From Candidatus Chloroploca asiatica (GTDB lineage Bacteria > Chloroflexota > Chloroflexia > Chloroflexales > Chloroflexaceae): a stretch of 64,000 nucleotides of DNA. Of this stretch, positions 10,861-57,657 are shown piece by piece (within the stretch, counting starts at the first letter, position 1; each line of letters starts with the position of its first letter). The stretch covers positions 62,001 through 126,000 of the forward strand of contig NZ_LYXE01000170.1 of the NCBI RefSeq assembly GCF_002532075.1, in the 5' to 3' direction. Position numbers and translations under genes: made by a program. The notes beneath the pieces were generated by a model that worked only from the letters and a program-made list of their open reading frames with translations, made no database searches and was not told the DNA's origin.

Positions 10861-10911
10861 CTTGTGTGTGCCAAAACAGCCAGCTTCGCTGGCTGTTTTG
10901 GCGCGCACAAG
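10861..10911 (-). terminator. 24-bp palindrome with a UUCG-type loop
   Basis: Arms 10861-10884 and 10888-10911 pair throughout with two T-G wobbles; the apex CTTCG can form a C(UUCG)G tetraloop. It starts 5 nt after the stop of the minus-strand nucleotidyltransferase and is its likely terminator. Confidence 0.75.
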
Positions 10912-16774: not shown

Positions 16775-16839
16775 ATGGTGCTTCGTGACAGACAAGCAGG
16801 CCAGCTTAGCTGGCCTGCTTGTCTGTCACGAAGCACCAT
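16775..16839 (+). terminator. 31-bp perfect palindrome with 3-nt loop
   Basis: Arms 16775-16805 and 16809-16839 are exact reverse complements with a TTA loop. It starts 14 nt after the TsoY-like stop. This is the longest perfect palindrome seen in the window and far exceeds an ordinary intrinsic terminator; no T-run follows. Confidence 0.85.
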
Positions 16840-24312: not shown

Positions 24313-24361
24313 GAGGGTAACGCAAAAAGGCCAGCAACGCTGGCCTTTTTGCGTTGCCCTC
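24313..24361 (+). terminator. 23-bp palindrome with T-run in the 3' arm
   Basis: Arms 24313-24335 and 24339-24361, one wobble, loop AAC; it contains CCAGC-AAC-GCTGG with a TTTTT stretch in the 3' arm. It lies between convergent genes (GPx and 24370-24636) and can serve both. Confidence 0.8.
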
Positions 24362-54760: not shown

Positions 54761-55453
54761 ATGAACTACTGGCAAGAAGCGATCAATCTGCTGGTTGGTG
54801 GCAACAGCGATGTCTGGGCGATCATCATCCTCTCTTTGCAAGTTTCGGGGGTGGCATTGCTGATCAGTGCGATCATTGGTGTCCCGCTTGGTTCTTTAAT
54901 TGGTTTGCATACCTTCCCAGGGCGCCAACTGGTCATTGCCATAGTCTATACGGGGATGGGGTTCCCCCCAGTCGTGATCGGCTTAGCCGTCTTTCTTTTG
55001 CTTTCGCGTTCAGGCCCGCTCGGTTTTCTTGGTTGGCTTTTCACCCCGAGTGCAATGGTGCTTGCCCAGGTCATCCTCGCGCTCCCCCTGGTGATTGGCT
55101 TTACGATGTCGGCTGTGCTTGCGGTAGATCCGGCGCTACGCACACAGATCCGCGCCCTGGGGGCCAGTCCAACCCAGACGACGCTTGCTATGCTCTGGGA
55201 AGCGCGGGTAGGCGTGCTGGTAGCGCTGATCGCCGGTTTTGGTGGAATCATCTCGGAAGTAGGTGCGGTGATGCTGGTTGGGGGCAATATCCAGGGTTCA
55301 ACGCGGGTGCTGACGACTGCGATTGTGCTCGAAACGCGCAAAGGCGCGTTTGATGTTGCGATCGCGCTTGCCCTGGTCTTGCTCGGCATTACGTTCGTGA
55401 TCAACCTGGCGCTACTGCAACTCCAGGGTACATTGCTCAAAGCCAAGCAATGA
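54761..55453 (+). CDS. tupB: Tungstate ABC transporter permease
   Basis: 230 residues with about five to six hydrophobic segments. The ABC permease EAA loop, which contacts the ATPase, lies at RALGASPTQTTLAMLWEARV. The family hallmark SEVGAVMLVGGNIQGSTRVL is present. ATG 54761 gives the family start; the ribosome-binding site is weak. Its stop overlaps the tupC ATG (ATGA). Confidence 0.9.
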   Translation: MNYWQEAINLLVGGNSDVWAIIILSLQVSGVALLISAIIGVPLGSLIGLHTFPGRQLVIAIVYTGMGFPPVVIGLAVFLLLSRSGPLGFLGWLFTPSAMVLAQVILALPLVIGFTMSAVLAVDPALRTQIRALGASPTQTTLAMLWEARVGVLVALIAGFGGIISEVGAVMLVGGNIQGSTRVLTTAIVLETRKGAFDVAIALALVLLGITFVINLALLQLQGTLLKAKQ

Positions 55454-56175
55454 ACACCGAATCAATCTATCAACTTGAGGCCATCCAGCAACGCTACGGT
55501 GAACGACTGGTGCTCGATATCCCATCGTTGCAGATCGAACGAGGCGAGTTACTGGCGCTCGTGGGGCCATCGGGGGCGGGTAAAAGCACCTTGCTGCGCA
55601 TCCTCAACTTCCTTGAGACGCCTACGCAGGGTCAACTCCGTTTTGCGGGCCACACGCTTGGCTCACGGGTGCCGCTTGAGTTGCAACGACGGGTCACAAC
55701 CGTCTTTCAACGACCTGCGTTGCTTAGTGGCAGTGTCCTTGACAATGTTGCCTATGGGTTACGCTTGCGACGACATCCACAGGTGCGCGAACGTGCGCGT
55801 GAAGCCCTGGCAGCAGTGGGCCTGGGCCACCTGGCGCGCGCAGCAGCGCATACGCTTTCGGGGGGCGAAGCGCAACGGGTTGCCCTTGCACGGGCGCTCG
55901 TCATTACGCCAGACGTGTTGCTGCTTGATGAACCAACGGCCAACCTTGATCCAGCGAATGTTGCGGCGATCGAGCGCACGGTTGCCGAGGCACACCGCCG
56001 TGGCACGACGATCATGCTCGTCACGCACAACATCTTTCAGGCACGGCGCCTCGCCCAGCGTGTCGCCCTGATGCTCGACGGGCGCATCATCGAACTTGCC
56101 CCCACCGAAACCTTTTTTGAAACCCCACACGACCCCCGGACAACGGCCTTTATCAAAGGGGACATGCTGTATTAA
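55450..56175 (+). CDS. tupC: Tungstate ABC transporter ATPase
   Basis: 241 residues. Walker A GPSGAGKSTLL, Q-loop FQRPALL, signature LSGGEAQRVALARAL, Walker B LLLDEPTANLD and the H-loop VTHNIFQ are complete. It powers TupB. Overlap of ATGA with tupB. The stop codon (56173-56175) forms the start of a palindrome that continues into the intergenic repeat region. Confidence 0.92.
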   Translation: MNTESIYQLEAIQQRYGERLVLDIPSLQIERGELLALVGPSGAGKSTLLRILNFLETPTQGQLRFAGHTLGSRVPLELQRRVTTVFQRPALLSGSVLDNVAYGLRLRRHPQVRERAREALAAVGLGHLARAAAHTLSGGEAQRVALARALVITPDVLLLDEPTANLDPANVAAIERTVAEAHRRGTTIMLVTHNIFQARRLAQRVALMLDGRIIELAPTETFFETPHDPRTTAFIKGDMLY

Positions 56176-56211
56176 GCGTATGCGGCCAGCAAAGCTGGCC
56201 GCATACGCTTA
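56173..56211 (+). terminator. 18-bp palindrome that includes the tupC stop codon
   Basis: Arms 56173-56190 and 56194-56211, loop AAA, with core GGCCAGC-AAA-GCTGGCC. The TAA stop is the first three bases of the 5' arm. Confidence 0.8.
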
Positions 56212-56328
56212 CGGCCGGTAGGGGTCTGCGGCCTGCGGCTTGCTTCGCTGGCCGCAGGCCGCAGGCCGGTGGGGGCCTGCGGCTTGCTTCGCTGGCCGCA
56301 CGCGTTTTAGGCCGGTGGGGGCCTGCAG
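56212..56328. repeat. Imperfect ~46-51 bp tandem units
   Basis: Three copies of a segment starting GGCCGGTRGGGGYCTGC at 56213, 56264 and 56310, two of them with a self-complementary GCGGC...GCCGC part. They sit between tupC and the 38-bp array and look like a decayed earlier amplification. Confidence 0.65.
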
Positions 56329-56551
56329 CCTGCAAGCATCGTGCCTATGCAGGTGAAAACGTGCGGCCTGCAAGCATCGTGCCTATGCAGGTGAAAACGT
56401 GCGGCCTGCAAGCATCGTGCCTATGCAGGTGAAAACGTGCGGCCTGCAAGCATCGTGCCTATGCAGGTGAAAACGTGCGGCCTGCAAGCATCGTGCCTAT
56501 GCAGGTGAAAACGTGCGGCCTGCAAGCATCGTGCCTATGCAGGTGAAAACG
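56329..56551. repeat. 38-bp tandem repeat array (5 full units plus 33 nt)
   Basis: Identical units start at 56329, 56367, 56405, 56443, 56481 and 56519; the last is cut after 33 nt by the palindrome core. Each unit contains CGTGCCTATGCAGGTGAAAA (plus CG) and can form a short CCTGCA/TGCAGG hairpin. There are no spacers, so it is not a CRISPR. Confidence 0.93.
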
Positions 56552-56588
56552 ACCAGCGAAGCTGGTCGTTTTCACCTGCATAGGCACG
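56530..56588 (-). terminator. 28-bp perfect palindrome, moaA 3' end
   Basis: Arms 56530-56557 and 56561-56588, loop GAA, ending 8 nt from the moaA stop. Its 5' arm (plus-strand order) is the last unit of the 38-bp array; the single 3' arm can pair with any of the six array copies. Confidence 0.9.
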
Positions 56589-56595
56589 GATTTCT

Positions 56596-57657
56596 CTACC
56601 CACCAAGTTGCGACATGCCACGCACGGTCGGCAGGACACCCTCGGGCAAACCGTGGCCCCAGGGTTTGATCTGTACGGCGTGGCGGACGATCTGTTCGAT
56701 CTCGGTGACCGTCGCGCCATTGCGGATGGCCGAACGAAGATCAACCTCGTCGTCACGCAACAGGCAGAGGTGCAGCCGCCCATCAGCCGTGAGGCGCATC
56801 CGATTGCACGTTGCACAGAAGGGATCGGTGACGGCACTGATAAAGCCAAGTTTGCCGGGGGCACCGGGGATCCGATAACGCCGGGCTGGATCGGCCGGAT
56901 CTTGACCATACGGGGTCAGCGCACCAAAATGAGCCTCGATGCGGGCAATCAATTCAGCCGTACTGATGACACCCTCTTCCGCAAGACCAGCCACGCCCGT
57001 CAGCGGCATCACCTCGATAAAACGGAACTCCCAGGGATGCCGGGTCGTCAGGGCCGCGAGTTGGACGACTTCATCGTCATTCATGCCCCGCACAATGACA
57101 GCATTGAGCTTGATTGGGTGGAGGCCAGCCTCATCAGCGGCCTGAATACCTGCCCAGACTTCATCCAGATTGCCACCGCGGGTCATCTGACGAAACTTGA
57201 CGGGATCGAGGCTGTCAATGCTCACATTGACCCGGTCGAGGCCAGCTTCTTTGAGTGGCCCGGCGAGGCGACGGAGGCGCAGCGCATTCGTCGTCATCGC
57301 CACATGCTCAATGCCTGGCACTGCTTTCATCGCCGCGATCAGCTCGACGATATCCTGACGCAGCGTCGGTTCGCCACCGGTCAAGCGGAGCTTGCGGAAA
57401 CCGGCTGCGGCAGCCGCCTGGATCACCAGCAACAACTCGTCGTTGGTCAGCAACTCGGGGCGCGGGGCAAACTGCATCCCAACGGCCGGCATGCAATAGA
57501 CACAGCGCATATTGCAGCGATCAGTCAGGGAAACCCGCAGATAATCAATGCGCCGCCCAAAGCTATCACGGGCCGGCTCATCGGTCGCATAGGTCGGGAT
57601 CTCCCGTGGCTCAAAAAAGGTCAACGGGATTGTTGCCTTGATGGGATCACGTTCCAT
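56596..57657 (-). CDS. moaA: GTP 3',8-cyclase (molybdenum cofactor biosynthesis)
   Basis: 353 residues, family length. The radical SAM Cys triad C48-C52-C55 lies in TDRCNMRCVYCMP; the second [4Fe-4S] site is in DPFCATCNRMRLTADGRLHL with a following Cys. LRLTGGEPTLR binds SAM. It converts GTP to 3',8-cyclo-7,8-dihydro-GTP, the first step of molybdopterin synthesis. The C-terminus ends MSQLGG, close to the usual GG tail. GAGG lies about 9 nt before the ATG. It is convergent with tupABC, so uptake and cofactor synthesis are neighbours. Confidence 0.95.
   Translation of the reverse strand: MERDPIKATIPLTFFEPREIPTYATDEPARDSFGRRIDYLRVSLTDRCNMRCVYCMPAVGMQFAPRPELLTNDELLLVIQAAAAAGFRKLRLTGGEPTLRQDIVELIAAMKAVPGIEHVAMTTNALRLRRLAGPLKEAGLDRVNVSIDSLDPVKFRQMTRGGNLDEVWAGIQAADEAGLHPIKLNAVIVRGMNDDEVVQLAALTTRHPWEFRFIEVMPLTGVAGLAEEGVISTAELIARIEAHFGALTPYGQDPADPARRYRIPGAPGKLGFISAVTDPFCATCNRMRLTADGRLHLCLLRDDEVDLRSAIRNGATVTEIEQIVRHAVQIKPWGHGLPEGVLPTVRGMSQLGG

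Follow-up and report, generated by a model that had tools for sequence, protein, structure and literature searches.

Our results indicate that the tandem array between the convergent genes tupC and moaA of Candidatus Chloroploca asiatica is a recent minisatellite, probably neutral, that appears to have been seeded at a terminator-type hairpin. We give this explanation, taken as a whole, a probability of about 0.78. The array lies in the window, by which we mean the whole stretch of DNA analysed (64,000 nucleotides of contig NZ_LYXE01000170.1, positions 62,001 to 126,000), and the species is represented by one genome, a 5.84-Mb draft in 199 contigs. Two congeneric genomes, G001 and G002, were used for comparison, and the array was also searched for across 41 genomes of the family. 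The relevant features, in window coordinates, are these:

55450 to 56175, plus strand: gene for a tupC-like ABC transporter ATPase, the upstream convergent gene and the last of a tup-like operon
56173 to 56211, plus strand: second core-type hairpin, its arms 18 bp long, which overlaps the stop codon of tupC; missing from both sister species
56230 to 56333, no strand: diverged repeat, 2.3 copies of 44 bp, with GGCCTGCGGCTTGCTTCGCTGGCCGCA hairpins; private to this genome
56324 to 56551, no strand: tandem array, 6.0 copies of the 38-bp unit TGCGGCCTGCAAGCATCGTGCCTATGCAGGTGAAAACG, with one mismatch in the first copy
56530 to 56588, no strand: perfect palindrome, two arms of 28 bp around a GAA loop, resembling a terminator when read in either direction (A4, then the CGACCAGC stem, then T4); kept in the sister loci L010 and L011
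56550 to 56572, no strand: core stem of this palindrome, CGACCAGC-GAA-GCTGGTCG and then TTTT, belonging to a dispersed set of CCAGCNNNGCTGG hairpins
56596 to 57657, minus strand: moaA, GTP 3',8-cyclase (TIGR02666, 385 bits against a cut-off of 284), the downstream convergent gene

The convergence of the two genes, 55450-56175 on the plus strand facing 56596-57657 on the minus strand, is as an earlier note on this DNA had described it. The operon name 'tup' is likely rather than certain, because the family matches of TupA and TupB score below the curated cut-offs; the closest named relatives of the ABC ATPase come mostly from Chloroflexota MAGs, at 58-61% identity.

Tandem Repeats Finder delimits the array at 56324-56551, with a period of 38, 6.0 copies, 99% matches and a score of 449. 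The earlier note had reported six identical copies, which holds for a 34-nt core, GCCTGCAAGCATCGTGCCTATGCAGGTGAAAACG, found exactly at 56328, 56366, 56404, 56442, 56480 and 56518; the full 38-mer occurs exactly five times, from 56362 to 56514, and the first copy carries a single mismatch (97%). A minisatellite is defined by a unit of 10 to 100 bp repeated head to tail in near-identical copies, as is seen here. A genome search found no further copies of the unit elsewhere, and this result, together with the repeat score, excludes a chance origin. A CRISPR array was rejected, given that the copies abut without spacers. A coding array, which the earlier note had named, together with an invariant copy number, as a refutation, was likewise rejected, as the 38-bp period is not divisible by 3 and a gene call based on codon statistics returned no gene; the non-coding status of the region thus holds.

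Of the 28 bases in the palindrome's 5' arm the unit covers the outer 22, preceded by 16 bases from the left flank, so that the proposal that the repeated segment is exactly the arm has to be given up. Its right end lies two bases inside the CGACCAGC core stem. The palindrome at 56530-56588 is real, its arms (56530-56557 and 56561-56588) being 100% complementary around a 3-nt loop, and the last copy of the array stops inside the 5' arm, as had been claimed. The core stem consists of 8 bp followed by TTTT on both strands, and the stem then continues past TTTT to 28 pairs. A terminator scan, which needs at least five T after the stem, left the palindrome unflagged because only TTTT follows the core stem and no T-run follows the full 28-bp stem. 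Comparison with known RNA families gave only sub-threshold matches, mostly to miRNA models, as expected of any long hairpin, and no phage, plasmid or viral matches were found. When the loop is compared between L011, L010 and the window (56558-56560), it reads GAA in two species, whereas the third has the reverse complement TTC, the pattern that an inversion of the centre would leave.

In G001 and G002 the gene order is the same as in the window, nucleotide identity is mostly 88-97%, and nearly all breaks in the alignments are intergenic. Both sister species carry the palindrome at the same locus without the array, and their arms show paired compensatory changes; judged from these alignments, the palindrome is therefore the older part. 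In G001 there is a single 38-bp unit, 89% identical, that continues directly into the palindrome of that genome, and in G002 only 24 bp of the unit are present. In no other genome among the 41 of the family searched was an array found. On this comparison, the stretch 56178-56528 is a gain in this genome, and the array was therefore gained in this species, or else is an assembly feature of the draft. The recent expansion that the earlier note had read from the identity of the copies is in this way borne out by the single-copy state of the sisters.

The palindrome belongs to a set of hairpins dispersed through the genus. Counts of the CCAGCNNNGCTGG core in the three congeneric genomes are 234, 258 and 226, compared with 25-28 for a reversed control, and the longer AAAACGRCCAGCNNNGCTGGYCGTTTT, with up to two mismatches allowed, occurs 62 times against none. 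The hairpin survey drew on sampled stretches of the three genomes that add up to about 1.2 Mb, in which hairpins with arms of at least 13 bp number 84 in 21.9 kb of convergent gaps, 107 in 83.9 kb of tandem gaps and 34 in 46.5 kb of divergent gaps; some stretches had been picked for carrying such hairpins, which affects the overall density and should not affect the contrast between convergent and divergent gaps (p = 5e-18). Hairpins of the CCAGC type are distributed in the same direction (26 convergent, 26 tandem and 8 divergent; p = 1e-7 for convergent against divergent). Of 66 CCAGC core stems, 38 are followed within 12 nt by a run of at least four T, compared with about 3% of intergenic positions, and an A-run on the opposite side mirrors it.

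Orthologous hairpins of the window hold their position while their arms change, with both sides altered and pairing retained in 23 pairs, and one side altered in 13. Counts of G-U and A-C at the hairpins do not separate selection at the RNA level from selection at the DNA level, since the two are the same mismatch read from opposite strands. Both placement at gene 3' ends, seen as convergent enrichment, and conserved pairing, seen as compensatory change, are found here. The set to which the palindrome belongs thus bears the marks of bidirectional intrinsic terminators, and its members would be expected to terminate transcription. As part of the explanation to which the joint figure above applies, the palindrome itself is probably an old hairpin of this type that ends the tup operon and moaA. 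A search of the literature on terminators in Chloroflexus, or on terminators of convergent genes with tandem repeats, found nothing direct. At window positions 24313-24361, 16775-16839 and 10868-10904, the hairpins and their orthologues are perfect or nearly perfect palindromes in the sisters, with rewritten arms: at 24313 the arms in G002 are of largely different sequence and still perfectly paired, and at 10868 the inner hairpin is missing in G002, the outer palindrome alone being kept.

We propose that the palindrome would have served as a bidirectional terminator-type hairpin at the ends of the tup operon and moaA before the array arose. Replication may then have stalled inside the hairpin, in this species only, and the new strand may have slipped back 38 bases, which would have duplicated the flank and the first 22 bases of the arm. 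From two copies, the number could have grown to about six through ordinary slippage, or through unequal recombination of the identical repeats, and the outcome would be a young, probably neutral minisatellite in the 3' region of the tup transcript. That the unit's right breakpoint falls within the stem of the hairpin, at a place where replication would be expected to stall, supports slippage. Polymerase pausing at template hairpins followed by strand slippage has been established in vitro, in work showing deletions (PMC4134008). In Escherichia coli, template switching at imperfect palindromes makes these palindromes more perfect (PMC7202029). Clear microhomology is missing from the junction of the duplication in the array, a part of which, AAAACG/TGCGGCC, is similar to 56294-56307 in reverse complement; for both reasons the first step may have been a template switch and not simple slippage. 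A broader idea, which we consider doubtful, is that the terminator hairpins of the genus act as mutational engines at the DNA level, in which template switching from arm to arm would rewrite the arms and keep the palindromes perfect, and a stall would occasionally amplify flank and arm into a minisatellite, as here.

Two other accounts of the array bear on its origin. It may be an assembly feature, with a true copy number that differs or with the whole array misassembled around a hairpin that short reads cross poorly, which we regard as unlikely. Besides the fragmentation of the draft, an N run breaks another tandem array in G001 (L152), and G000 contigs stop within two bases of CCAGC-family hairpins at the end of C89 (328624-328650 of 328652) and at the start of C23 (2-28), from which it follows that these hairpins probably break assembly and that the assembled copy number may be wrong. 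Against this, the array has unique flanks on both sides, in synteny with those of the sister species, the edge copy has a private mismatch, and an array of 228 bp is short enough for long or paired reads to cross; it is more plausible that the copy number is wrong than that the array is false altogether. That the hairpin is a mobile palindrome, REP/REPIN-like or a MITE, which inserted and brought the repeats with it, seems very improbable. Hundreds of copies of the core are scattered across the genus and the genome has genes of the Y1 transposase family, but none of its five such loci (Y1_Tnp) has a CCAGC hairpin in its flanks, and REP/REPIN membership, which involves association with a RAYT gene, is not supported for this reason. 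Moreover, the palindrome is in the same place in all three species, as many other hairpins are conserved in place, the core is common while the arms differ between places, and placement favours convergent genes.

The earlier note had instead read the array as a switchable, length-variable structure in which one distal arm has six possible partners. Worked out for RNA or DNA, this reading would have the distal 3' arm pair with one or another of six copies of the 5' arm, so that the number of copies would adjust termination or read-through between the two operons. The complementarity that this requires is present: over 22 nt, the 3' arm has a 100% complementary partner in every one of the five upstream copies, and in the tup direction the array precedes that arm in the transcript. 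The predicted pairing, however, is local. In the partition function of a 448-nt RNA in the tup direction, the 3' arm pairs with the adjacent arm at a mean probability of 0.997 and with every other copy at 0.000, the local hairpin alone, with 28 bp around a 3-nt loop, having an energy of -55 kcal/mol. When a distal partner is imposed, the best energy rises from -283.1 kcal/mol to -264.1 or -267.2 kcal/mol, a penalty of 16-19 kcal/mol. Prefix folding has the array copies paired among themselves, with the local hairpin closing once the 3' arm appears; in the moaA direction the array lies past the hairpin and would not be transcribed before it; and the sister species manage without the array. The folding models thus do not support the switch, which was rejected as the leading reading and to which we assign a very small probability.

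The amplification of an arm, as in the recent minisatellite that we favour, is not a general habit of the hairpins sampled. Such a habit was rejected, given that only ten arm matches were found in 294 sampled hairpins and four of them are at this locus, where two matches in the window were counted a second time in L125; the others belong to unrelated GGGCACCC- or AGCTTCC-type repeats. Among the sampled hairpins, it is only here that a repeated unit includes a portion of a core-type hairpin's arm. Other intergenic arrays in the genus do abut hairpins, for example at L152:11996-12196 in G001, where arrays of 16 bp x 4.7 and 17 bp x 5.5 stand side by side before a CCAGC hairpin, the 17-bp array being 6 bp away. 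A second type of repeat, GGGCACCCGCAAGGGGTGCCC with variants, forms intergenic arrays in the genome of Candidatus Chloroploca asiatica at L177:17424-17737, L135:11408-11607 and L185:2278-2371.

Taken together, the array would represent a minisatellite caught soon after its birth, with the ancestral single-copy state kept in the sisters and the unit boundary within a hairpin stem, and it offers a clean natural example of a tandem duplication associated with a hairpin. The perfect, covarying hairpins at gene ends throughout the genus are of more interest than the array itself. Compared with known systems, the array resembles a bacterial minisatellite or VNTR produced by replication slippage, being intergenic, made of near-identical head-to-tail copies, present in one species and not in its sisters, and situated beside a strong hairpin; it differs from the usual case in that the unit boundary falls inside a palindrome and the last copy forms most of one hairpin arm. 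The palindrome is like a bidirectional intrinsic terminator in its GC-rich stem, its flanking A-run and T-run, its place between convergent genes and its conserved position, although its stem runs far past the T-run to 28 perfect pairs and the run has four T only. The hairpin set, finally, shares with REP/REPIN elements the character of dispersed extragenic palindromes in hundreds of copies, whereas its members are single hairpins and not doublets, none stands beside genes of the Y1 transposase family, and their positions are conserved between species.
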